Assembly (NCBI RefSeq): GCF_006716345.1
Contig: NZ_VFOX01000001.1
Span: 2,914,001 to 2,978,000, forward strand
Source: Microbacterium saperdae
GTDB taxonomy: Bacteria > Actinomycetota > Actinomycetes > Actinomycetales > Microbacteriaceae
DNA: 64,000 bases
Reading direction: 5' to 3'
Shown: in pieces, positions 13,988 through 30,501 of the stretch
Position numbering within the stretch: the stretch's first letter is position 1
Layout: the number at the start of each line of letters is the position of its first letter
Made by a program: the position numbers and the translations under genes
Notes under the pieces: model-generated
The model's database searches: none
What the model was told of the DNA's origin: nothing
Seen by the model: only the letters and a program-made list of their open reading frames with translations

Positions 13988-15448
13988 GTGGAACTGAGCG
14001 ACTACTTCCGGATACTTCGCGCGCACTGGGTAGTGATCCTGGTGGCGACCGTGCTCGGCGCGGGCGCCGCGTTCGGATGGAGCGCGCTGCAACCGCGCGT
14101 CTACGCGGCTGACACGACCGGTATCGTCACGTCGGTGGGCGGAGACGGCACGTCCGGCAGCGCACTCGTCGGCAACCAGCTCGCGCAGAGCCGTGTGAAG
14201 TCGTACCTGAACCTCGGCTCCTGGCGTGCCGTGGCCGAGCATGCGATCGACGACCTCGACCTCGACGCGTCTCCGGAGTCGCTGGTGTCCCGGGTCTCCG
14301 TGACGAACCCCCCGGATACGACGGCGCTGAAGGTCACCGCGACGGGCCCGACTCCGCAGTCGGCGCAGGATCTCGCGGAAGCGTGGATGCGCGGCATGGC
14401 CGTCGAGATCGAGAAGCTCGAGGGCGGCACCGAATCGACACCTGCGGCGGTGAGTCTGATCGTCGGCGATTCGGCGCGGCTCCCCACGAGCCCGTCCTCA
14501 CCCAACACCCGATTGAACCTGATCATCGGCGCGCTCGCCGGTCTCGCCCTGGGTCTGGTCTACGCATTCGTCCGTCACACGGTGGATCGTCGCATCCGTC
14601 ACCCGCGCGACATCGAGCGCGAGACCGGCGTCTCGGTCATCGGCACCCTCCCTCTGGAGAAGACGATGGATGGCGAGCGTCAGGTGATCGACTTCTCGCT
14701 GGATACGCAGCACGGCGTCTCGCATCACACGATCGAGTCGATGCGCGAACTGCGCACGAACCTGCAGTTCATCGACGTCGACAACCCGCCGCGCGTCATC
14801 GTCGTCACCAGCTCCGTCCCCGGTGACGGAAAGTCGACCGTGGCCGTCAACCTCGCCTCGAGCCTCGCCGCTGCCGGCCAGTGGGCGATCCTGATCGACT
14901 GCGACCTCCGCCGCCCCGTGATCGCCGACATCTTCGGCATCTCCCGCGACGTCGGCCTGACCGACATCCTCGCCGGACGCGCCGAGCTGCAGGACGTCGC
15001 GCACCGCCCCAACGGTGATGTGCCGCTGGCCGTCCTGGGTGCCGGGCGCATCCCGCCGAACCCGAGCGAGCTGCTCGGCTCCCACCGCATGCGTGACTTC
15101 CTCGCCGACATCAGCAAGTCGGCGATCGTGATCCTCGACTCTCCGCCGGTCCTCCCCGTGACCGATGCGGCGGTGCTCGCCGCGGGCGCCGACGGCGTGC
15201 TGGTCGTCGTGTCCTCCGGCAAGACCACGTTCGACATGCTGCAGCGCGCGATCGACAGCATCACGCGCACCACCGGCCGCGTGCTGGGCGTCGTGCTGAA
15301 CAAGGTGCCCCGCAAGGGCGCGGAGTCGGCGTACTACGGCCGCGAGTACTACGGCGCCTACGAGCGCTACGGCCAGGATCCCGACAAGGAGACCGCGCCG
15401 ACCGCGGACCCCGAGCCCGGGGTGCGCCGCCGAGGCTCTCAGGTCTGA
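13988..15448 (+). CDS. Wzz-type chain-length regulator fused to BY-kinase (copy 1)
   Basis: A 486-residue polysaccharide co-polymerase/tyrosine autokinase. Residues 1-195 are a Wzz domain with two membrane segments (about 16-30 and 177-195). The kinase part has Walker A SSVPGDGKST (275-284), Walker A' ILIDCDLR (301-308) and Walker B VILDSPP (381-387). The tail carries a tyrosine cluster (YY 449-450, YYGAYERY 454-461), the expected autophosphorylation site. It regulates chain length and export of exopolysaccharide in the membrane. The GTG start has GGGGA upstream and a TATGCT -10 box near 13927. It overlaps the convergent HprK-like gene by 10 nt. Confidence 0.93.
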   Translation: MELSDYFRILRAHWVVILVATVLGAGAAFGWSALQPRVYAADTTGIVTSVGGDGTSGSALVGNQLAQSRVKSYLNLGSWRAVAEHAIDDLDLDASPESLVSRVSVTNPPDTTALKVTATGPTPQSAQDLAEAWMRGMAVEIEKLEGGTESTPAAVSLIVGDSARLPTSPSSPNTRLNLIIGALAGLALGLVYAFVRHTVDRRIRHPRDIERETGVSVIGTLPLEKTMDGERQVIDFSLDTQHGVSHHTIESMRELRTNLQFIDVDNPPRVIVVTSSVPGDGKSTVAVNLASSLAAAGQWAILIDCDLRRPVIADIFGISRDVGLTDILAGRAELQDVAHRPNGDVPLAVLGAGRIPPNPSELLGSHRMRDFLADISKSAIVILDSPPVLPVTDAAVLAAGADGVLVVVSSGKTTFDMLQRAIDSITRTTGRVLGVVLNKVPRKGAESAYYGREYYGAYERYGQDPDKETAPTADPEPGVRRRGSQV

Positions 15449-16536
15449 GCCGAGAGCCGCTGCAGCAGTCCGTCATCCACGAGCTGCTGCGCGGCAGAGG
15501 CGACCGCCTGTGTCGCGTCGAGCCCGTCCGGCGCGCCGTGCACCTCGACCACCGCCCGCACGATGACGTCGAGGTCGCTCGCATTCGCGGCCGCCCAGAT
15601 CGCGGGGCCGATGCCGTCGAGAATGTTGAAGCGTCCTCCGCCGTCGGAGCGCTGCAGCACCGCGAGCCGACCGTCACCGAGATCCAGCGCATCGACGGCT
15701 TCCGCCCGTGCGTACGTCCCCTCGTGAGCGTCGGTGGCGAACCGGTCGTTGTCGACGCCAGACGACGGGATCGGCGGAACCGTCGCAGGCTCCGCCGCGA
15801 TCAAGGTGCCGATGAGCGCATCCAGAGTCGAGACCTCGCGGTAGCGCAACCGCACGGCTCCCCCCGTCGCAGTGAGGAGCGCGTCGATGAGCTGCAGCGG
15901 CGCGGGCACGTGCCCGAGATAGCTGGTCTGCGGCGCCAGCAGTTCGAGTGCAGTCGCCATGTCGAGCTCGTCGACCTCCGGCTCGAGCGGCCCGTCGGAG
16001 GTGCGGTCGAGCACCACGATCTTCGCCACACGGAGCCCACCGGGCAGCGCGCGCCCGCCGTCGATGCTCGACAGCGCGGTCTGCACCTTGTGCGGGGCAT
16101 CCGGTTCGATGATCGACAGGGGCTTGCGGTAGGGGACCACGGCACCGGAGTTCTCGATCGCGATCGTCTCGTCGCTCACGTACGCATAGTGCCGCGACAG
16201 GTGGCGCGCCGCCGTGGTCTTCCCGGTGCCGGAGGCGGCGCTCAGCACTATGACCCGACCGGACTCATCGGCGAGCCCGGTGGCATGCAGCATCCAGAGC
16301 TGGTCTCCCTGCCGGTGCGCGAGCGCTGCGAGGGTGACGTCCGTCGACAGCAACGACAAGGCTTCCTCGTCGCTGACGGCGTCGCGCACCGAGACCGTCG
16401 CATCCGCGGAGACGTCGCCCGTGATCAGGGCGTCGCTCCACGCCTCTCGCGCGCGACGCTGGAACGATCCATCGCGTGAAGCGGTGTCGACGGCGATCAC
16501 CGCGCCGACCGCGCTGACGAGGAAGCGATCAGACAT
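15439..16536 (-). CDS. HPr-kinase-like P-loop protein fused to a PqqD-like domain
   Basis: A 365-residue protein. Residues 95-130 hold a P-loop LSAASGTGKTT and the segment VSDETIAIE, as in the C-terminal kinase half of HprK-like proteins found with lasso-peptide and polysaccharide genes. Residues about 275-362 (from YARAEAVDALDL through LDGIGPAIWAA to QLVDDGLLQRL) resemble PqqD, the family that also provides RiPP recognition elements. The N-terminal 90 residues match no domain I know. Function is not known: it could phosphorylate a peptide, protein or sugar acceptor. TAGGCT lies 7 nt before the ATG (leaderless). It is divergent from the AraC-type regulator and convergent with BY-kinase copy 1. 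Confidence 0.75.
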   Translation of the reverse strand: MSDRFLVSAVGAVIAVDTASRDGSFQRRAREAWSDALITGDVSADATVSVRDAVSDEEALSLLSTDVTLAALAHRQGDQLWMLHATGLADESGRVIVLSAASGTGKTTAARHLSRHYAYVSDETIAIENSGAVVPYRKPLSIIEPDAPHKVQTALSSIDGGRALPGGLRVAKIVVLDRTSDGPLEPEVDELDMATALELLAPQTSYLGHVPAPLQLIDALLTATGGAVRLRYREVSTLDALIGTLIAAEPATVPPIPSSGVDNDRFATDAHEGTYARAEAVDALDLGDGRLAVLQRSDGGGRFNILDGIGPAIWAAANASDLDVIVRAVVEVHGAPDGLDATQAVASAAQQLVDDGLLQRLSAQT

Positions 16537-16543
16537 GGCTCTC

Positions 16544-16549
16544 AGCCTA
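16544..16549 (-). promoter_or_regulatory. -10 element of the HprK/PqqD-like gene
   Basis: On the minus strand TAGGCT lies 7 nt before the ATG at 16536, with no ribosome binding site, indicating a leaderless mRNA. Confidence 0.55.
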
Positions 16550-16612
16550 GCCAGCATCCGTCGCGGGCCCGGTCAGGAGTCGACATCGCGAGCGCGGCGC
16601 TCAGCACAATCC

Positions 16613-16636
16613 GCGCAGATTTGACGCACACTGCGC
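16613..16636 (+). promoter_or_regulatory. Dyad operator, copy 1
   Basis: GCGCAG-N12-CTGCGC. The same dyad with the same 12-nt spacer occurs at 18054-18077. Sequence just outside and inside the dyad is also shared (AGCACA ... TTGA-CGCACACTGCGC). It ends 42 nt upstream of the first base of the putative -10 box TAACGT (16678-16683), as in copy 2, which is a plausible position for an activator site. The regulator encoded between the two copies is the obvious candidate binder, but this is inference. Confidence 0.65.
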
Positions 16637-16652
16637 GCTCATTCTCCATTCG

Positions 16653-16717
16653 TTGCATTTTCTCCGGAGGTCCGTCCTAACGTGAGCCGCAGGTGAAGCT
16701 CCTGGGGGATGCAGACG
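16653..16717 (+). promoter_or_regulatory. Promoter and conserved leader, copy 1
   Basis: A weak -35 (TTGCAT, 16653-16658) and -10 (TAACGT, 16678-16683) precede a 20-nt leader element GCTCCTGGGGGATGCAGACG (16698-16717). The leader element is identical to one at 18139-18158 and lies the same 20 nt from the -10 in both copies. Confidence 0.6.
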
Positions 16718-16780
16718 GAATCGTGTCGTTTCACCACGACATCTCGAACCTGTGGAACGCACCGACCCGGAGAACACGGC

Positions 16781-17155
16781 ATGAACGAAATGGCGCAGAT
16801 GCCCCCGAGTATCTCCCTCCGTCCCCGTGTCGACGAACGCTTTTCCGGTGCGATCAGGCGCGATGCTCATGGTCCCACGGCTCGCCAGGTCGCAACGATT
16901 CCTGCCCCAGGACTTCTTGACTACGCACCCGCGAGACGCATCGCGGCGTCGACGTTGACAGCCCCCGTCGTGCGCCCCACAATCAGAACTGAATCAGCAT
17001 TCAACCCAGCCGGAACTCCGTCCGAGATGCACTCACGAAGAAGCGCGTTCACTCGGGAGAGGGTGCGAAGAACCCGCCATCCGCACCCGACGCCGACACC
17101 GCACGCCGACACCTTGAGGGAGGAGTTCCCGTGGATCACTCAGACGCTCGGCTGA
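16781..17155 (+). CDS. Putative small protein of unknown function behind duplicated leader
   Basis: A 124-codon reading frame starting MNEMAQMPPSISLRPRVDER. The start is supported because GGAGAACAC-spacer-ATGA-N2-GAA matches the ribosome binding site and start region of the Tat-protein gene at 18222, which follows the same promoter module. The body is Arg/Pro/Thr-rich with weak GC bias at third positions and no recognised domain. It could therefore be a short real peptide read through into non-coding sequence, a decayed gene, or only a leader. It overlaps the next gene by 25 nt. Confidence 0.35.
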   Translation: MNEMAQMPPSISLRPRVDERFSGAIRRDAHGPTARQVATIPAPGLLDYAPARRIAASTLTAPVVRPTIRTESAFNPAGTPSEMHSRRSAFTRERVRRTRHPHPTPTPHADTLREEFPWITQTLG

Positions 17156-18027
17156 TCGACGATCGAGAACTGTCCCGACACGGCATCCGTCGGATCGGCG
17201 ACCGTCCAGGGCTCCGCTCGCGTGAGCGCACGTCGGGCGGAGTGCTGCTCCTCGGCCTCAACGGCTCCACGGCGGAACTCCACGTCGACACCACCTCGGC
17301 GTACCCCGATCATGCGGTCTTCGCCTTCGTCGAAGCACAGGCCGTGTGGTCGAAGCTCGGCGACGAACCGTGGGTCGAATCCGAGGGAGGTCTCGTCATC
17401 GCCCCGCACGGGATCACACGCCGCCTGCGCTGGTCGGGAGCATGGCGGTTCATCGCCGCCCTCGTCCCCCGTACGGCGATCGCATCCTTCGTTCCCGCCC
17501 TGCCGCCCGACGCGAGCACATATGCCGATCGTCGCCTGCTCGACTCTTCTATGCAGAGGTTCATCGGAAGCCTGCTGGACACCGAGAACCACGCATCCGC
17601 GATCGAGCAGTACGCCATCGAACAGCTCGTCATGGAGATGAGCGGCGCCGTGCTGCTCGACCGGATCGGCGCCGTCACCGGACAGGGCTCGCCGCACACC
17701 GTGCTGCGAGAGCGCGCCATCGCGGTGATCGCGCAGCAGTGTGGCGACCCCAGCCTCAACCCGTCCCGCGTGGCGCATGAGGTGCAGTCGTCACTTCGCC
17801 AGCTGCAGCTGGTCTTCTCCGAGTCCGGCAACAGCGTCGCCGGGGAGATCCGACGCCAGCGCGCACGTCTCGCCCACTCGCTTCTCGTCGACAGCCGCTA
17901 CGACGTCCTCAGCATCGATCAGATCGCGCAGCGTTCCGGATTCAACTCTCCGATGAGTCTCCGGCGAGCCCTCGACGAGGCCTACGAGACGACTCCGCGC
18001 GCCCTCCGCGCCGCACGACGCGCCTGA
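17131..18027 (+). CDS. AraC-family transcriptional regulator
   Basis: A 298-residue DNA-binding protein. The N-terminal about 180 residues resemble the cupin-like sensor half of AraC_binding_2 regulators. The C-terminal part (about 190-297) is an AraC/XylS double helix-turn-helix, with the second helix pair LSIDQIAQRSGFNSPMSLRR followed by TTPRALR. The GTG at 17131 has a strong GAGGGAGGAG ribosome binding site 5 nt upstream. It lies between two copies of an identical dyad/promoter module, so it probably controls both units, itself included. Effector unknown. Confidence 0.88.
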   Translation: MDHSDARLIDDRELSRHGIRRIGDRPGLRSRERTSGGVLLLGLNGSTAELHVDTTSAYPDHAVFAFVEAQAVWSKLGDEPWVESEGGLVIAPHGITRRLRWSGAWRFIAALVPRTAIASFVPALPPDASTYADRRLLDSSMQRFIGSLLDTENHASAIEQYAIEQLVMEMSGAVLLDRIGAVTGQGSPHTVLRERAIAVIAQQCGDPSLNPSRVAHEVQSSLRQLQLVFSESGNSVAGEIRRQRARLAHSLLVDSRYDVLSIDQIAQRSGFNSPMSLRRALDEAYETTPRALRAARRA

Positions 18028-18053
18028 TAGTTCTCCGCCGAAAAGCACAGCGC

Positions 18054-18077
18054 GCGCAGGTTGAGCGCACACTGCGC
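18054..18077 (+). promoter_or_regulatory. Dyad operator, copy 2
   Basis: GCGCAG-N12-CTGCGC, identical in arms and spacing to 16613-16636, and 42 nt upstream of the first base of the -10-like TAGCTT (18119-18124). It precedes the Tat-signal protein gene. Confidence 0.65.
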
Positions 18078-18092
18078 TGAGTTCCTCAAAAC

Positions 18093-18158
18093 GATGTTCT
18101 CGCCCCGTTTCTCCGACCTAGCTTGAGGTCACGGAGAGGCTCCTGGGGGATGCAGACG
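18093..18158 (+). promoter_or_regulatory. Promoter and conserved leader, copy 2
   Basis: Putative weak -35 (GATGTT, 18093-18098), -10 TAGCTT (18119-18124) and the leader element GCTCCTGGGGGATGCAGACG (18139-18158) identical to copy 1. The start codon at 18222 lies 63 nt further on, behind GAGGGAGA. Confidence 0.6.
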
Positions 18159-18221
18159 AACGTGTCGCCTCTTCATGACACCGCGGGAAACCGCATCTGC
18201 ATCTAGAGGGAGAACACTCGA

Positions 18222-18731
18222 ATGACCGAAGAAATCCAGAAGGACAAGGGCCTCTCGCGCCGCACCGTCGTGAAGGGCGCCGCCTGGTCCGTCCCCGTCA
18301 TCGCCGCGGCCGTCGCGACACCGCTCGCAGCCGCATCAGGGGGCGACGTCGAGGTCGGCGCGTTCACCACCGCGGGCACCTGTGGCGTGCTGGGCGTCAT
18401 CGGACCCGGCTTCACGCTCACGGCGAGCGCCACGGCGCCCCTGCCCGTCGGCACCTCCGTGATCATCACCGGTAGCGGCGTCGCCAACATCGGTGTCTTC
18501 AGCGTCACCGGCGGCACCGCAAGCGTCGCAGTGCTCTCCGGTACGAGCCGTCAGATCACGCTCACGTCCGAGCTTCCCGCCGGGGCCACGATCGCGTTCC
18601 GCACGACGCTGTCGATCTCCGTCGCCTTCACGCTCAACGAGGTCGTCTCCCTCCCGACCGGCTACGTGGGCACGGGCGCGAAGACGGCCGGTTCCGTCTC
18701 CTCCACGCTGATCCTCTGCTCCGCAACCTGA
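18222..18731 (+). CDS. Tat-signal secreted protein of unknown function with two cysteines
   Basis: A 169-residue protein with a twin-arginine signal SRRTVVKGAAWSVPVIAAA (residues 12-30) and a likely cleavage after AAA near residue 38. The mature part is Thr/Ser/Val/Gly/Ala-rich, almost without charge, looks like a beta-sandwich, and has exactly two cysteines (C54, C166) that could form one disulfide. No named family recognised. It follows copy 2 of the dyad/leader module and has ribosome binding site GAGGGAGA. A strong hairpin follows, then the MauE-thioredoxin gene. Confidence 0.8.
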   Translation: MTEEIQKDKGLSRRTVVKGAAWSVPVIAAAVATPLAAASGGDVEVGAFTTAGTCGVLGVIGPGFTLTASATAPLPVGTSVIITGSGVANIGVFSVTGGTASVAVLSGTSRQITLTSELPAGATIAFRTTLSISVAFTLNEVVSLPTGYVGTGAKTAGSVSSTLILCSAT

Positions 18732-18766
18732 TCCACCCCGCACGGCCTGAGCCTTCGGGCCAGTGG

Positions 18767-18794
18767 AGCGGCCGGCCCCTCGGGGCCGGCCGCT
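18767..18794 (+). terminator. Strong GC hairpin after the Tat-protein gene
   Basis: Perfect 13-bp stem (AGCGGCCGGCCCC, 2-nt loop, complement) 36 nt after the stop codon. It lacks a U-run. It probably ends or attenuates transcription before the MauE-thioredoxin gene. Confidence 0.7.
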
Positions 18795-18818
18795 CTCGCA
18801 ATCCAGGATGATGGTGAC

Positions 18819-19811
18819 ATGACCGCGTTCCTCCTCCCTGTAGCGTTGTTCCTCGCCGTGGTCTTCGCCGTGAGCGCGATCGGCAAACTCCGCTCTCCTG
18901 ATCGCGGCCGTGGCACCTTCGAGGCACTGCGGATCCCCGTCTCTCGCACAGGGACGGCGTCCACGGCGCTGATCCTGCTCGAGGCGCTCGTGGCCGTCGC
19001 GCTCGTCGTGACCACCGGGTGGCTCTTCGTCGCCGCGGCCGGTGCGGCGCTCCTCCTCACGAGCGCTCTGCTGATGGTCGTGATCCGCGCACACCGCCTG
19101 GGAGCTGCGGAGGACTGCGGATGCTTCGGGGAGTGGCTCCCTGCCGTGATCGGCCCCCGCCTGATCGTCCGCAATGCTGTCCTGGCGACCGCAGCCTTCT
19201 TCCTCTTCCTCCCGGCGCTGTTCCTCCTCGCCAACACCGGCCGTCCCACCGGCGTGCCGCTCCTGCTAAGTTCCGGCTCCGCGGCGAACAGCTCACTCGG
19301 CGCTCTCGCGGCGGCCACCCTGATCGCGTTCGGTGTCTGGTCGATCGCGCGGGCATCGTCGACCGCCCCGGCGGCCCCCTCCCCGATCGCGCGCGGCGAT
19401 GGCGCCGTGCTCGTCCCTGCGACCTCTGAGGTCGTCGACGTTCTCGCCCGCGGCTCCCGCGCGCGCCTGCTCGTATTCGTCTCCGCAGGGTGCCACGCGT
19501 GTGCGACGGCCCTCGACGCGCTCATCCAGGATCAGGGCTCCCTCGACTCGCTGGTGGAGATCTACGTCATCCAGCGCGCGTCCAGCGGCTCGGCGGTGAC
19601 GCGTCCGACACACGACCTGCCCGCTACGGCCCGCTTCGCGCTCGACATCGGAGGCTCGCTCGGCGGAGCGCTGGAGATCGGAACCGCGCGGCCGGCGGCC
19701 GCGCTCATCGGCACGGACGGCGCGCAGGCCGGTCCTCTCGCCCTGGGTTCGGAGGAGATCGCTCAGTTGGTCGCCAGCATCGTCGCGTTCGCAGACGAGC
19801 CGACCGCCTGA
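18819..19811 (+). CDS. MauE/DoxX-type membrane protein fused to a thioredoxin-like domain
   Basis: A 330-residue protein. Residues 1-180 contain about five membrane segments and the MauE hallmark DCGCFGEW (C100, C102), a motif of the methylamine-utilisation MauE/DoxX group implicated in disulfide handling. After a short linker, RLLVFVSAGCHACATAL (from residue 217) is a thioredoxin-like strand plus CxxC (C225-C228). The fold suggests a membrane thiol-disulfide oxidoreductase acting outside the cell. Its immediate neighbour is a secreted protein with two cysteines, the likely client. No mauA/mauB dehydrogenase genes are present. Confidence 0.8.
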   Translation: MTAFLLPVALFLAVVFAVSAIGKLRSPDRGRGTFEALRIPVSRTGTASTALILLEALVAVALVVTTGWLFVAAAGAALLLTSALLMVVIRAHRLGAAEDCGCFGEWLPAVIGPRLIVRNAVLATAAFFLFLPALFLLANTGRPTGVPLLLSSGSAANSSLGALAAATLIAFGVWSIARASSTAPAAPSPIARGDGAVLVPATSEVVDVLARGSRARLLVFVSAGCHACATALDALIQDQGSLDSLVEIYVIQRASSGSAVTRPTHDLPATARFALDIGGSLGGALEIGTARPAAALIGTDGAQAGPLALGSEEIAQLVASIVAFADEPTA

Positions 19812-20944: not shown

Positions 20945-21628
20945 ATGATGACCACCACCGAGGAACCTCGACGGCGCCGCACTCCTTTCCGCAGCGTGTG
21001 GTTCCATGTCGCGCTCGCCCTCGCCCTCACCCTCTTGGTCGTCGCCTTCATCGGCCAGCCGTCCTCCGGTTCCATGGCGCCGACACTGCAGCCGGGCGAC
21101 CGGTTGATCGTCAACCGCCTGGCCTACGTCGCCGCCGACCCCGGTCCCGGAGACATCGTGGTGTTCCGCCCGGATGAGGATTGGGGAGAGAAGCCGGCGT
21201 CGGGAAACTGGGTCTCGGCGGCGCTGCGCTGGGTCGGCGAGACCACCGGCATCCGCCCGTACGTGCTCGTCAAGCGTGTCATTGCCGGTCCCGGGCAGAC
21301 GGTCGAATGCTGCGATGCCGACGGGTCAGTGCTGGTCGACGGCGAGCCACTCGACGAGCCGTACGTCGTCGACAACCTGCCATTCGTCCCCAGCCAGCTC
21401 GACTGCGACACGACGCCGGTGTCAGCCCGCTGCTTCCCGGCGGTCACCGTGCCGGAGAACTCATATCTCGTGCTCGGCGACAACCGTGCCAACTCCGCGG
21501 ATTCCGCGTTTCCCTGTCGGGGGAATCCCACCGCCGACGACGGGTGCTTCCGCTGGATGACCCGCGACGACGTGTTCGGCAAGGCCGGAGCGATCCTCTG
21601 GCCGGTCAGCCGCTGGGGTGGCCCGTAG
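20945..21628 (+). CDS. lepB: Signal peptidase I
   Basis: Membrane serine protease that removes Sec and Tat signal peptides. In the 227-residue form one N-terminal membrane anchor (about 18-37) is followed by the catalytic serine S43 in SSGSMAPTLQPGD and lysine K110 in VLVKRVIAGPGQTV. The C-terminal box reads YLVLGDNRANSADSA. The ATG at 20945 has GGAG 8 nt upstream; an in-frame GTG at 20915 is possible as a leaderless start. An extra signal peptidase within an exopolysaccharide locus suggests service to the secreted proteins nearby. Confidence 0.93.
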   Translation: MMTTTEEPRRRRTPFRSVWFHVALALALTLLVVAFIGQPSSGSMAPTLQPGDRLIVNRLAYVAADPGPGDIVVFRPDEDWGEKPASGNWVSAALRWVGETTGIRPYVLVKRVIAGPGQTVECCDADGSVLVDGEPLDEPYVVDNLPFVPSQLDCDTTPVSARCFPAVTVPENSYLVLGDNRANSADSAFPCRGNPTADDGCFRWMTRDDVFGKAGAILWPVSRWGGP

Positions 21629-27306: not shown

Positions 27307-28434
27307 TCAGGTGTTCCGCACGAGCCGTATCACGCCATCCTTCAAGCGCTGCACCCGCACGACGAACAAGCGCTTCCGCGGCCTGACGGCCGCTGCGCGC
27401 ATGAGTTGCGACGCATCGGTCGACGGCCAAAGGAGACGGACGAGCACACGTGCTCTCTCACCCCAGGGAAGCAGGCGCACAGCCGCCAGCTGACGCCGCG
27501 GGACAGATGCGATCGACCGCCATCCCCAATCCCAGGGAACACGGGTGCCGATCTGCGACAGGTCCGCGTCGGGAAAGCTCTCTGCCAGAGCGCTTCGAAG
27601 TACGAACCCCGCCCCGAGCGTCTCCGTCGCATCAACGGTCTCTTCTCCCGCACTGCTGAGCGCACGGACGGCGCGAGCACGTTGATCTGCGGTGTGCTGA
27701 ACCCCGGCCACCGGGCGGAGCTCATGAAGTGCATATATCACTGCATGGACTGGACGAGACGGAACATGTACGACAGCCCCGGCGAAGGTATGGCGCGCTG
27801 CCCCGGCCAGCACAAAATCGAACGCCACGGACACGTCAGTGGTCACCCCCGGGAATCGGGTGTGAACATCGATCTCGCAGCCCCACGCGCCCGGCACCAG
27901 CGCTCGGGAGTGCGCAACGATGGTTCCGTCGAATGCGGCACGAGCAACTCGCCATCCCCAGCGCTCCATGGCGGCGACGAGAACCTTCTCATCACCTGGA
28001 CGGACCCAGCAATCGACATCGCCGGAATGTTCTTTATCCCTCAGTCCCTGTGCGTGCAGCACCGGTCCCTTGATGAAGATGATGTCTATTCCCGCTTCCC
28101 TGGCCACGTTGCTCAGGAGGGCGTAGACGAGTTCATGCTGGAAAGAGATGAGCCAGGGCCGGCTCAAGCGTCCGCTCGTAACGACCGGTGATTCTGTTCG
28201 GACCACAACGCCGAGCTCGTGCAACTGCGCCAGCGTCTCTCGGGTCGACTGATCGACCCGAGAATCATCGATAGCGGAGTCGAGAGCTTGGAACCAGAGA
28301 GCCGCGCCCTCGCCCCAGAGCATCTGCGGGGGCGCCGGATCAACTGGCGTAACGACGAACTCGTATCCGTCGGCGGCGAGATCGTGCTCACGCACGTCCA
28401 GCGCGCCGAAGCTCGCGGCCACCCAGTAAGACAT
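27307..28434 (-). CDS. PqqD-like domain fused to NTP_transf_5-type nucleotidyltransferase
   Basis: A 375-residue protein. Residues about 30-80 (VDPAPPQMLWGEGAALWFQA to LHELGVVVR) resemble a PqqD-like domain. From residue 92 the core reads RPWLISFQHELVYALLSNVA, IIFIKGPVLHAQGLR and SGDVDCWVRPGD, the pattern of uncharacterised NTP_transf_5 nucleotidyltransferases found with HprK-like and PqqD-like genes. The DVD aspartates are the likely metal ligands. The start has a good GGAGGGTAG ribosome binding site. Target unknown; note the HprK-PqqD fusion 11 kb away. Confidence 0.75.
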   Translation of the reverse strand: MSYWVAASFGALDVREHDLAADGYEFVVTPVDPAPPQMLWGEGAALWFQALDSAIDDSRVDQSTRETLAQLHELGVVVRTESPVVTSGRLSRPWLISFQHELVYALLSNVAREAGIDIIFIKGPVLHAQGLRDKEHSGDVDCWVRPGDEKVLVAAMERWGWRVARAAFDGTIVAHSRALVPGAWGCEIDVHTRFPGVTTDVSVAFDFVLAGAARHTFAGAVVHVPSRPVHAVIYALHELRPVAGVQHTADQRARAVRALSSAGEETVDATETLGAGFVLRSALAESFPDADLSQIGTRVPWDWGWRSIASVPRRQLAAVRLLPWGERARVLVRLLWPSTDASQLMRAAAVRPRKRLFVVRVQRLKDGVIRLVRNT

Positions 28435-28503: not shown

Positions 28504-30501
28504 TCAGCTGCATCCCTTCGCGGCGATATCCACGCTGGTTTCGCGAACCATCGGCGTGTGCTTGACGGTCAGCGGTCCGTAAGAGGCTCCCTTGGCAGCC
28601 TCCGCACCCTTCATGAGCACCTGGAGCGTGGCGGACTCTCCCGGCTTCAGAACGATGTTCACCCGAATCGCATCACGCCCGAGATGGGTCGTATGTGCGA
28701 GCGCATCGCGCGCCTCCCCGTTCACTGTCCAACTCTCGATCGTCGCTCCGACTGGGGCGTAGACGATGTAGTCGGTCCCGATGTCTCCGGGGGTGAAGTA
28801 CGGTCCGGTGATGTACCGCGGCAGAGTGTTCGCCTTGTCCCGCGTGATCCCGTTCTGCAGAGTGACCGAGGTCGTCCAGCTGGGTGCTCCCAACGCCGTG
28901 CACTGGTCGGTCTCCACAGCGACCGCCGCATCAACGTAGTAGTCCATCTTCGAACCGGTCGTGTCGTTGAAGTAGACGCCGATGGCCGTCTCCTCGTCGT
29001 TGTCGATCGGAAGAGTTCCGGCGACAGGAGATCCGTCGATGACGGCCATAGCGTCGGCGTCAGGCACCCAAACCTTCAATCGCCCTTCAACCGCGGCTTT
29101 GCTCCCGGCGTCGATGAGTTTCACCGGAGAGGCGCCCCCGGCGAGCAATCCGTTGAACACGGAGACTGCGGCGCCAGCGAAGAAGGCGTTCGAGTCGCGC
29201 CCGTCGGGATAGATGAAATAGGCCTCATTCATGAGGAGCGCCGCGGCGTTCTCGCTGGTGAGCACGTCGCCGGTCGCGAGCGTGAGCGGCCCGGTGGCCT
29301 CCAGGAAGTAGCTCAGAGCCACCGGATCCACGGAGACGACTCCATCGATCTGATCATCGAACTGGGTCGCCCACCACCCCTGCAGAAGTGCCGCGGTCGT
29401 CGGGAAGTCGGGAGTCGACGTCATGTTCGCCGTCCAACGGCCCACGATGTCGGAGTACAGCGCCGTCGTCTCCGCATCGAGCGGCACGACGGACTCGGGG
29501 ATGGCGAACGGGAACTCGGTCGCGGCGACATCCTTCTCGAAAGTGATGGCGCCCTGATCCGCGCGGAGGACGACGAACGAGCCGGGGCTGCCGCCGCTGG
29601 CACGCGCCTCGGCGTTTCCCTGGAACATGAGCAGGTAGTTTCGCGGTCCGTCGGCGCCGAGAAGCCCCGGAAGTATCCCGAGGATGTCCTGGGCCGGACC
29701 CACGAGGGCGCGCACCTGCCCAACGGCGTCATCAACCTGCTTCACGCCCGTGCCGACCTGTTCGATGAGCGCAACGCGATCGATCGCGTCCAGCTGGCCC
29801 TCGATGCCATCGACCGCTTCCCCGATCTCGGCCACGGTCGACTGAATCGTGGAGAGACCGGCAACATCCACGCGTCCTCCCGATGGGGCGATCGATGCCA
29901 GTGTCATGGACGACGCCGGTACCAGGATCTGTGTGCCGACCTCCTCGGCGACGTCAGCGACCGTGTGCACGGCCCGAAGGTTCTCGAAGACGGGCAAGGG
30001 GATCTGCTCAAGCGCGCTCCATGCTCGGCCGTCGAGCGCCGCTTGCGCCGCGGAAGCCTCTTTCACATACGCCTGCGCAGCCTGCCCAGCGGCATCGACG
30101 TCGCTCGCGAGCAGGGCGGACTTCACCTGATTGACGTACGGCATAGCGGCTGTGAGATGAGCGCGCGCCGTCATCGCCTGGTCGTACACGCGCTTGCCGA
30201 CGAACGCGCCGCCGACTCCCAGAGCAACGACGACGACAGCCACAGAACTCCAGATCCAGATCCGCCGGCGCCTCCTGCTGCGACGCGATCGGTGGTGGCC
30301 ACCTCGCGAGGATGAACTCTTCGTGCGTGATTCCGACCGAGCAGAATCCGAGCGAACTGGAGCATCGTCGCCGGGGACGGAAGGAGCGGAGTCATCATCT
30401 GATCGCGGGGGGCTGCTGAAGAGCGCCTCCATGTTCTCGTCGATCTCGCGCCGCGTCCGATCACGTCGGAGGGCAGGCGGCTGGTCGGGTGAGTCGCTCA
30501 T
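28504..30501 (-). CDS. DUF4012 membrane-anchored protein
   Basis: A 665-residue protein. The first 80 residues are charged and cytoplasmic, ending in a basic RSRRSRRRRRIW stretch, followed by one membrane segment (IWSSVAVVVVALGVGGAFV) and a large extracellular domain. GPRNYLLMFQGNAEARASGG and SPGSFVVLRADQGAITF are typical of DUF4012, common in actinobacterial polysaccharide loci; LytR-CpsA-Psr enzymes share a similar layout but not this domain. Role unknown. The ATG at 30501 is preferred over an upstream TTG. It is transcribed ahead of the nucleotidyltransferase gene and diverges from the dehydrogenase gene. Confidence 0.85.
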   Translation of the reverse strand: MSDSPDQPPALRRDRTRREIDENMEALFSSPPRSDDDSAPSVPGDDAPVRSDSARSESRTKSSSSRGGHHRSRRSRRRRRIWIWSSVAVVVVALGVGGAFVGKRVYDQAMTARAHLTAAMPYVNQVKSALLASDVDAAGQAAQAYVKEASAAQAALDGRAWSALEQIPLPVFENLRAVHTVADVAEEVGTQILVPASSMTLASIAPSGGRVDVAGLSTIQSTVAEIGEAVDGIEGQLDAIDRVALIEQVGTGVKQVDDAVGQVRALVGPAQDILGILPGLLGADGPRNYLLMFQGNAEARASGGSPGSFVVLRADQGAITFEKDVAATEFPFAIPESVVPLDAETTALYSDIVGRWTANMTSTPDFPTTAALLQGWWATQFDDQIDGVVSVDPVALSYFLEATGPLTLATGDVLTSENAAALLMNEAYFIYPDGRDSNAFFAGAAVSVFNGLLAGGASPVKLIDAGSKAAVEGRLKVWVPDADAMAVIDGSPVAGTLPIDNDEETAIGVYFNDTTGSKMDYYVDAAVAVETDQCTALGAPSWTTSVTLQNGITRDKANTLPRYITGPYFTPGDIGTDYIVYAPVGATIESWTVNGEARDALAHTTHLGRDAIRVNIVLKPGESATLQVLMKGAEAAKGASYGPLTVKHTPMVRETSVDIAAKGCS

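Follow-up and report, generated by a model that had tools for sequence, protein, structure and literature searches.

Within a 64,000-nucleotide stretch of the Microbacterium saperdae genome (hereafter the window), an exopolysaccharide (EPS) locus encodes an HprK-like kinase with a C-terminal PqqD-type domain, a nucleotidyltransferase and a protein bearing a twin-arginine translocation (Tat) signal, and across the genus the kinase, the nucleotidyltransferase and a conserved Tat leader occur together. We propose, with a probability of roughly 0.55, that these parts form a leader-guided protein modification system, in which an RRE (the recognition element of ribosomally synthesized and post-translationally modified peptides, RiPPs) would direct the phosphorylation, perhaps the phosphoglycosylation, of Tat-exported surface proteins from within the EPS locus. 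Whole proteins exported by Tat, and not a peptide, appear to be the substrates, and the co-inheritance of the parts suggests an undescribed modification of whole proteins before export.

The sequence-only reading of this DNA had grouped four genes at 15439..19811 into one possible modification and secretion system, comprising a kinase-PqqD fusion, an AraC-type regulator, a Tat-signal protein without a known domain and a MauE-thioredoxin fusion. All four genes exist as described, the PqqD segment and the thioredoxin tail by indirect evidence, and their linkage is conserved: they are contiguous, in the order kinase-AraC-Tat-MauE, in seven of the 40 kinase-positive genomes read (that of the window, G117, G088, G083, G005, G066 and G116), and in named Microbacterium strains. 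As a whole system, the four-gene set was rejected. The AraC gene (at least 220 bits) is found in only 17 of 149 genomes with a weak association to the kinase (p 0.016) and stands without a kinase in five loci, and the MauE-thioredoxin gene accompanies the kinase in 34 of 55 genomes. The parts inherited together across the genus are instead the kinase, the nucleotidyltransferase, the Tat-leader family and one Wzc subfamily.

Co-inheritance of the kinase, the nucleotidyltransferase and the Tat leader

Co-occurrence was assessed in 149 genomes that sample the genus evenly. The kinase was found in 55 of these (E 1e-3), the nucleotidyltransferase in 54 (E 1e-5) and the leader in 53 (E 1e-5), with all three present in 50 genomes and none in 91. 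Expressed as both, first only, second only and neither, the counts were 52/3/2/92 for kinase and nucleotidyltransferase, 51/4/2/92 for kinase and leader and 51/3/2/93 for nucleotidyltransferase and leader (Fisher p at most 1.7e-32 for all three pairs). The nucleotidyltransferase occurred without the kinase in G030 and G115 (partial), and the leader did so in G023 and G030, which are 83 and 77% complete.

To place these patterns on a phylogeny we used a single-gene rpoB tree of 141 genomes, eight having been omitted for want of a usable rpoB segment. Parsimony gave 29 changes for the kinase, 27 for the nucleotidyltransferase and 26 for the leader, compared with shuffled means near 42, consistent with a patchy pattern. 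Across 29 path-disjoint kinase contrasts the nucleotidyltransferase agreed in 26, the leader in 26 and the MauE-thioredoxin gene in 15, and none was reversed. In view of the repeated changes on the rpoB tree and the 26 of 29 agreeing contrasts, a lineage artefact was rejected as the cause of the co-occurrence.

Beyond the window's own genome, 54 of the Microbacterium genomes are kinase-positive; for 39 of them we read the surroundings of the kinase, in 40 stretches of 20 kb (15 of the 55 were left unread), the genes being our own simple codon-usage calls without curation. In 11 of these 40 loci the kinase lies beside an argS-like gene, recognised by eye, and the 20 kb contains neither a Wzc-cluster gene nor one for a nucleotidyltransferase (L049, L051, L053, L055, L058, L060, L063, L064, L066, L068 and L074). 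Linkage alone does not account for the pattern, because these 11 genomes, eight of which have a single kinase match, all retain a nucleotidyltransferase and leaders elsewhere. At the level of the family, a kinase match reaching 84 bits or more is present in 31 of 299 genomes (the window's own and G066 among them), spread over 14 genus labels besides g1; the larger family tally of 220 at E 1e-3 consists mostly of matches to the P-loop stretch, at about 31 bits or less.

The two enzymes and the leader that may recruit them

The kinase gene lies at 15439..16557 on the minus strand, with a likely start at 16536 that gives 365 residues, and a homologue 60% identical is known from M. oxydans. It encodes a P-loop protein for which HprK-related kinase A, TIGR04352, is the nearest named family (E 3.4e-5), at 23.1 bits against a cut-off of 200. 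An alignment of relatives places a Walker A motif, GxGKT, at about residues 107-115 (16213..16239, minus strand); its G110, G112, K113 and T114 are present in 36 of 36 aligned relatives, and H91, K113, D129 and E130 are invariant in the same set.

At about residues 283-372 of the kinase (15439..15711, minus strand) lies a PqqD/RRE-like domain, identified by profile-profile alignment (hhalign) to three PqqD-positive sets at 94.8, 96.3 and 95.9% probability. The PqqD part of the predicted fusion thus stands on relatives and profile-profile comparison (95-96%), and the HprK-type label falls below the TIGR04352 cut-off. In precomputed annotation, by our count, 56 of 120 listed kinase relatives carry the PqqD family PF05402, PF27840 also appears among the relatives' annotations, several are named "PqqD family peptide modification chaperone" by NCBI, and longer relatives have a second PqqD domain. 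Against PF05402 (cut-off 23.4), four stand-alone small proteins from sister loci reach 41.3, 24.2, 21.2 and 13.3 bits, two of them above the cut-off. When five PqqD proteins of the stand-alone kind were pooled with three second PqqD domains, the set matched the solved RREs 9x90 (5.7e-6) and 5v1u (1.2e-5), as well as PqqD 3g2b and, weakly, LppB 9x8z (E 0.027). The kinase domain is therefore assigned to the RRE type through a chain of two steps, since the kinase aligns to the PqqD sets and the stand-alone PqqD set to solved RREs.

The nucleotidyltransferase gene (27307..28434, minus strand), found by tblastn with sister-locus homologues, lies 11 kb from the kinase. It belongs to the NTP_transf_5 family (PF14907, 33.5 bits against a cut-off of 31.2), and three acidic residues, D139, D141 and D189, are kept in 17 of 17 aligned sequences, as the rule of an acidic triad in nucleotidyltransferases predicts. 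No relatives of solved structure were found for the enzyme. Its N-terminal extension (28165-28434, minus strand) bears a weak resemblance to PqqD, at an hhalign probability of 82-84% from four sequences only. Adjoining the gene is one for a DUF4012 protein (28504-30243, 155.8 bits), of a cluster found in many of the fetched EPS loci. In sister EPS loci a glycosyltransferase-like gene (called by eye), the nucleotidyltransferase, a stand-alone PqqD gene and a MauE-thioredoxin gene form a tight run whose ends overlap or nearly touch (L061:460-2530, L062:17198-19929, L065:17186-20000 and L071:16770-19998).

The Tat leader of the window occupies 18222..18338 on the plus strand, its twin-arginine signal having been recognised by eye only. 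Alignment of leaders shows an RRE-type motif, W22xxP25xI27 (18285-18302), and Ser39 (18336-18338) after AxA. The leader consensus, RR..KGAAWSVPVIA..AAAS, carries WxxPx[ILV], and the window leader contains A-A-W-S-V-P-V-I; the motif falls within the hydrophobic core of the signal peptide. This genome has 14 copies of the leader, fronting mostly unrelated bodies, and the profile search of the genus gave 247 matches by our own sum, including one genome with 22 copies. A search of the fetched loci returned 124 unique strings, of which three short ones were dropped and the 121 longer than 30 residues analysed. W is present in 118 of these, P in 121, the full motif in 115 and a Ser directly after AxA in 116, the W and P counts being inflated because the pattern used to collect leaders mostly contained W..P; three leaders of the window's own genome that this pattern missed nevertheless fit. 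By comparison, WxxPx[ILV] occurs in 5 of 97 other N-termini with an RR and a hydrophobic stretch from the same loci, and two of those five are leaders missed by the filter.

The conservation of the leader reflects selection on its amino acids, because 11 aligned leaders from this genome share 77% protein identity, yet differences occur in 60% of 990 fourfold-degenerate comparisons, a level at saturation (0.54-0.66 for unrelated codons). The same saturation rules out recent duplication as its source. With a motif on which RRE domains are published to dock, the shared leader looks like a docking site for the kinase and a second enzyme.

Cargo, redox partner and regulation within the exopolysaccharide locus

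The Tat-leader surface protein of the window (18222..18731, plus strand) has 169 residues, with C54 and C166 present in 34 of 34 aligned relatives. As described from sequence, it matches no Pfam family, and a search for solved relatives gave one chance-level match only. The mature domain (18348-18731, about 128 residues with the two invariant cysteines) is a mobile C-terminal domain across phyla, 65-80% identical at the C-terminus of longer secreted-looking proteins of Delftia, Paracidovorax, Labilithrix and Chiayiivirga (carriers L253, L257:4752-8387, L259:7119-8381, L264:6750-8381, L272:6906-8381 and L275:2922-8384). A phage or plasmid home for the domain was rejected after zero matches in 50,697 phage records, 72,556 plasmids and IMG/VR.

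Downstream, at 18819..19811 on the plus strand, lies a gene for a MauE membrane domain with a CGC motif (PF07291, 69.3 bits, E 5e-19) and a CxxC thioredoxin-like tail. The tail, with a CHAC motif, has no profile match above cut-off, and the thioredoxin label is based on the CxxC motif and context. The relatives listed keep CxCFG and CxxC, as judged by eye. The Tat protein adjoins a MauE-thioredoxin gene in 17 of 42 named loci, from Microbacterium, Herbiconiux, Subtercola, a Corynebacterium-like strain, Nocardioides and Flexivirga. Two or more mature cysteines are found in 27 of 33 leader proteins at most two genes from a MauE-thioredoxin gene versus 16 of 28 without one, a weak comparison from overlapping taxa, made after identical sequences had been dropped. 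The MauE-thioredoxin protein probably forms the C54-C166 disulfide after export.

The four-gene arrangement varies in several genomes. G060 keeps the order kinase-AraC-Tat-MauE with a Tat protein that is unrelated and cysteine-free; G004 has an acyltransferase gene inserted between the Tat and MauE genes; and in G023, not scored as kinase-positive, AraC-Tat-MauE lie on a 3.2-kb contig that ends short of the kinase's place. At L045:12259-12792 and L164:1207-1743 the Tat gene is swapped for that of an unrelated cysteine-free Tat-leader protein, with the 5' leader RNA and leader peptide retained, as if cargo at the syntenic locus had been exchanged behind a fixed cassette in two genomes.

The AraC-family regulator (17131..18027, plus strand; relatives called at 298 residues) was correctly recognised, matching HTH_18 at 41.6 bits (E 1.5e-10). 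Five genomes carry it without the kinase, Tat protein or MauE gene (L153, L155, L156, L157 and L158), near a Ppx/GppA-cluster gene and flanked also by genes resembling glmM, glmS and coaA. Because these kinase-free loci lie beside Ppx/GppA-type genes, the regulator may be older than the EPS island at this site.

A duplicated module had been reported as shared by the Tat and AraC units, and CTCCTGGGGGATGCAGACG indeed occurs exactly twice in the window, at 16699 and 18140; with up to three mismatches allowed there are still two matches, compared with 0.06 expected by chance. The module is part of a 5' leader RNA whose conservation is higher before the Tat gene than before the AraC gene. At the Tat gene (18134..18211, plus strand) this RNA is predicted to form a three-way junction (minimum free energy -30.5, z -2.54), in which an outer UCCU pairs with AGGG of a Shine-Dalgarno-like stretch and GAUGCAGA with UCUGCAUC, alongside two more hairpins. 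In the relative L041 (z -3.85) both outer helices recur with a different inner fold. Over 17 sequences 93.6% of paired cells are standard, and covariation is thin, with two-sided changes at one pair only. The degenerate copy upstream of the AraC gene (16693..16786, plus strand) has the exact motif at 16699 and folds poorly (z -0.45); it matches the RNA model R1 at 29 bits, a model whose input included relatives' AraC copies and left the window's own out. A model search of 75 loci beyond the window found nothing under E 0.1, and a motif copy in L046 was missed by the model. A known riboswitch was rejected, there being no Rfam family at gathering in four loci and one chance match (E 0.47) in window positions 16500-18800. 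With modest support, the 5' leader RNA of the Tat gene is likely a translation switch. A 148-residue reading frame at 16709-17155, whose ATG lies within the conserved GGGGGATGCAGACG and which runs into the start of the AraC gene, has no match above cut-off in the Pfam/TIGRFAM scan and is possibly a leader reading frame or chance.

The surrounding EPS island, also proposed earlier, is real, because genes for Wzc-like, low-molecular-weight protein tyrosine phosphatase (LMW-PTP), RgpF, glycosyltransferase and export-type proteins flank the kinase. Pfam and TIGRFAM profiles identify a Wzc-like tyrosine autokinase (13988..15448, plus strand; TIGR01007, 157.7 bits) of the subfamily that co-occurs with the kinase, the LMW-PTP, RgpF, an acyltransferase, rhamnosyl- and other glycosyltransferases, proteins of the polysaccharide-export type, and a Wzy_C match below its cut-off. 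A signal peptidase I (20996..21628, plus strand) is of the bacterial type (TIGR02227, 99.3 bits against a cut-off of 47), with just 18.1 bits for the archaeal TIGR02228. The Pfam scan took in 23 of the window's open reading frames.

Proposed mechanism, rival explanations and known systems

RRE-guided phosphorylation is proposed because of the leader motif, the kinase precedents from lasso peptides and from the linear polyphosphorylated peptide (LPP) family, and the invariant H91, K113, D129 and E130. The domains, the conserved catalytic motifs, the leader motif and the selection on it, the co-occurrence and the linkage are observed; leader binding, the modified residue and its chemistry, the redox pairing and the role in EPS we infer from co-occurrence and motifs. 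Tat-bound proteins would carry the common leader, with WxxPx[I/V/L] in its hydrophobic core, and this motif would be bound in the cytoplasm by the kinase's PqqD/RRE domain, and perhaps by the similar extension of the nucleotidyltransferase. The kinase would then phosphorylate a cargo Ser or Thr, for which the near-invariant Ser directly after AxA is the likeliest candidate, and the nucleotidyltransferase could next place a group of nucleotide or sugar type on that phosphate, as the kinase PsmK and PsmN reportedly do in pseudomycoidin. Once folded, the protein would exit via Tat, signal peptidase I would cut off the leader, MauE-thioredoxin would close the C54-C166 disulfide, and the processed protein may join or anchor the exopolysaccharide made by the flanking genes, with AraC and the 5' leader RNA presumably governing expression. 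Of the earlier suggestion that a secreted product is modified and oxidised, a secreted protein is the best reading, and the substrates do not look like a peptide.

If this is correct, chemistry known from peptide natural products has been put to use in decorating ordinary exported proteins, a single signal peptide doubles as an export tag and a docking site for enzymes, and a function follows for some 250 Tat-leader genes of the 149 genomes that so far lack a name and for the HprK-PqqD and PF14907 genes of polysaccharide loci, along with a route for joining proteins to exopolysaccharide. More tentatively, and in our view doubtfully, these dual-purpose Tat signal peptides could mark a set of proteins (14 here, 22 elsewhere) that are phosphorylated, then glycosylated, and act as EPS primers or anchors.

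Several observations weigh against leader-guided modification. The kinase occurs without the nucleotidyltransferase in G003, G020 and G138, and without the leader in G003, G134, G138 and G141. Its HprK model score is far under the cut-off, its own C-terminal segment has no match to PF05402 even at E 1, despite the family's presence in relatives, and its PqqD profile gave chance-level matches only against solved RRE structures. The leader profile was itself built mostly from leaders gathered by the W..P-containing pattern. Cargo C-termini are variable, so C-terminal Ser phosphorylation of the lasso type is not general. A looser search with the full-length Tat protein (E 0.01) gave single weak matches in G056, G077, G115, G118 and G139, all kinase-negative. 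Finally, six of the 33 leader proteins within two genes of a MauE-thioredoxin gene have no mature cysteine, among them the sole adjacent leader proteins of G060 and G023; in G060 a canonical copy lies elsewhere.

The enzymes might instead act on the polysaccharide or on lipid-linked precursors, the Tat-leader proteins being separate matrix proteins of the same EPS type. Wzc homologues overall, taken as a control, are present in 125 of the 149 genomes, and a Wzc subfamily of at least 360 bits (a threshold picked post hoc, from the gap between 366 and 340 bits) occurs in 55, of which 53 are kinase-positive, and agrees in 27 of the 29 contrasts. This subfamily co-occurs equally well, and the package may simply mark one EPS type; because it tracks the kinase, a polysaccharide substrate stays alive as an explanation, in keeping with the Wzc-cluster gene in 26 of the 40 loci fetched around a kinase match and with the position of the window's nucleotidyltransferase among glycosyltransferase genes. 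Published PqqD-type domains, however, bind peptides, as the available parts of PMC13381572 and of the lasso reviews describe them. A polysaccharide substrate also leaves the PqqD fusions, and the WxxPx[ILV] motif and Ser of the signal peptide, unexplained, and we regard it as unlikely.

Tat chaperones that bind signal peptides exist, and the PqqD domain could be such a chaperone or an export gate that holds back folded cargo, the kinase then regulating export or EPS synthesis without decorating the cargo. The location of the motif inside the hydrophobic core fits this idea, as does the position of the window kinase beside the Wzc-like kinase and near the LMW-PTP, a regulatory pair, yet neither the equally strict co-occurrence of the nucleotidyltransferase nor the conserved Ser after the cleavage site is explained by it; we judge it rather improbable. 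That the parts are not functionally coupled at all, and co-occur through common descent or because linked genes were transferred together, seems to us highly improbable: the genes are linked in many genomes, and the tree is of one gene with eight of 149 genomes missing, but each label changes 26-29 times on it, 26 of 29 contrasts agree, and co-occurrence persists where the genes are unlinked.

Leader-guided modification has partial parallels among known systems. TIGR04352 and TIGR04353 (PqqD_rel_X) likewise pair an HprK-like kinase with a PqqD-family protein; here the two are fused, the kinase scores 23.1 against 200 bits and a sister-locus PqqD 20.7 against 35. Unlike the hosts of the PEP-CTERM/EpsH exosortase system, the host here lacks an outer membrane. 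In the available part of its description (PMC1569441), that system shares with ours many diverse exported proteins that bear one sorting signal and whose occurrence across lineages is tied to a cognate enzyme and to EPS loci, and a common upstream regulatory element. The signal here is N-terminal and of the Tat type, and the enzymes are a kinase and a nucleotidyltransferase in place of an exosortase.

In lasso peptides, HPr-kinase homologues that share His-Lys-Asp-Asp phosphorylate a C-terminal Ser, and in pseudomycoidin PsmN is needed to add hexoses onto the phosphate from the kinase PsmK, as the available parts of two sources report (PMC8498205, PMC9266682). It tells against the analogy that a host enzyme is not excluded there as the hexose adder (PMC8498205, PMC9266682). 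Paeninodin and pseudomycoidin resemble our system, as far as those parts go, in combining an HPr-kinase homologue, a nucleotidyltransferase and a PqqD-type B1 protein. The lasso His-Lys-Asp-Asp would correspond to H91-K113-D129-E130 here, with Glu130 in 36 of 36 relatives and positions equated by order and spacing, not structure. Differing from lasso clusters as so described, the 23 scanned reading frames of the window include no macrolactam cyclase (C) or B2 peptidase, no small precursor was seen, and the conserved cargo Ser is not C-terminal.

The sequence-only reading knew of no described system with its gene set, and in the open-access literature we found no description of this set with Tat leaders; the claim gives way all the same to a close relative, the LPP RiPP family of Bacillota, Paenibacillus among them, reported in May 2026 (PMC13381572). 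According to the available part of that paper, LPP capsule loci encode a discrete PqqD-type RRE, an HprK-like kinase, an NTP transferase, a SipW-like signal peptidase and an MsbA-like exporter, with precursors conserved at the N-terminus and variable in the rest. The kinase there targets Ser3 of the core for phosphorylation, and the RRE serves to present the leader to the peptidase; the LPP consensus is similar to the [Y/W]xxPx[L/V/I/F/A] recognised by discrete lasso RREs (PMC13381572). LPP peptides and paeninodins are stated there to be restricted to Bacillota, and the role of the peptides in capsule loci is left open in print (PMC13381572).

Compared with LPP loci as they appear in that part of the paper, ours share a PqqD-type RRE, an HprK-like kinase, an uncharacterised NTP transferase, a signal peptidase I, a capsule or EPS setting, a fixed N-terminus with a variable remainder, a leader motif of the [Y/W]xxPx[L/V/I/F/A] kind and a Ser near the core start. 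The kinase and NTP transferase are paired in 52 of 149 genomes, the motif is found in 115 of 121 leaders, and the stand-alone and second domains match solved RREs, the window's own domain being tied to them only through profile-profile comparison with PqqD sets. Two differences count against equating the systems, in that LPP leaders are not Tat signals, as the leader here is, and the LPP peptidase is SipW/archaeal-like while the one here scores as bacterial. The cargoes here are moreover entire proteins, the kinase (perhaps also the nucleotidyltransferase) carries the RRE as a fused domain, the host is an Actinomycete, the longer consensus YxxPxVLxHQxIxFETxxS is absent from the leaders by eye, and no MsbA-like exporter is among the 23 reading frames of the window that were scanned. 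Because the peptidase type differs, the exporter was unseen in that scan and the leader is a Tat signal, we do not claim LPP membership; by analogy, the best reading is a system that would work like the LPP family on actinobacterial Tat proteins.

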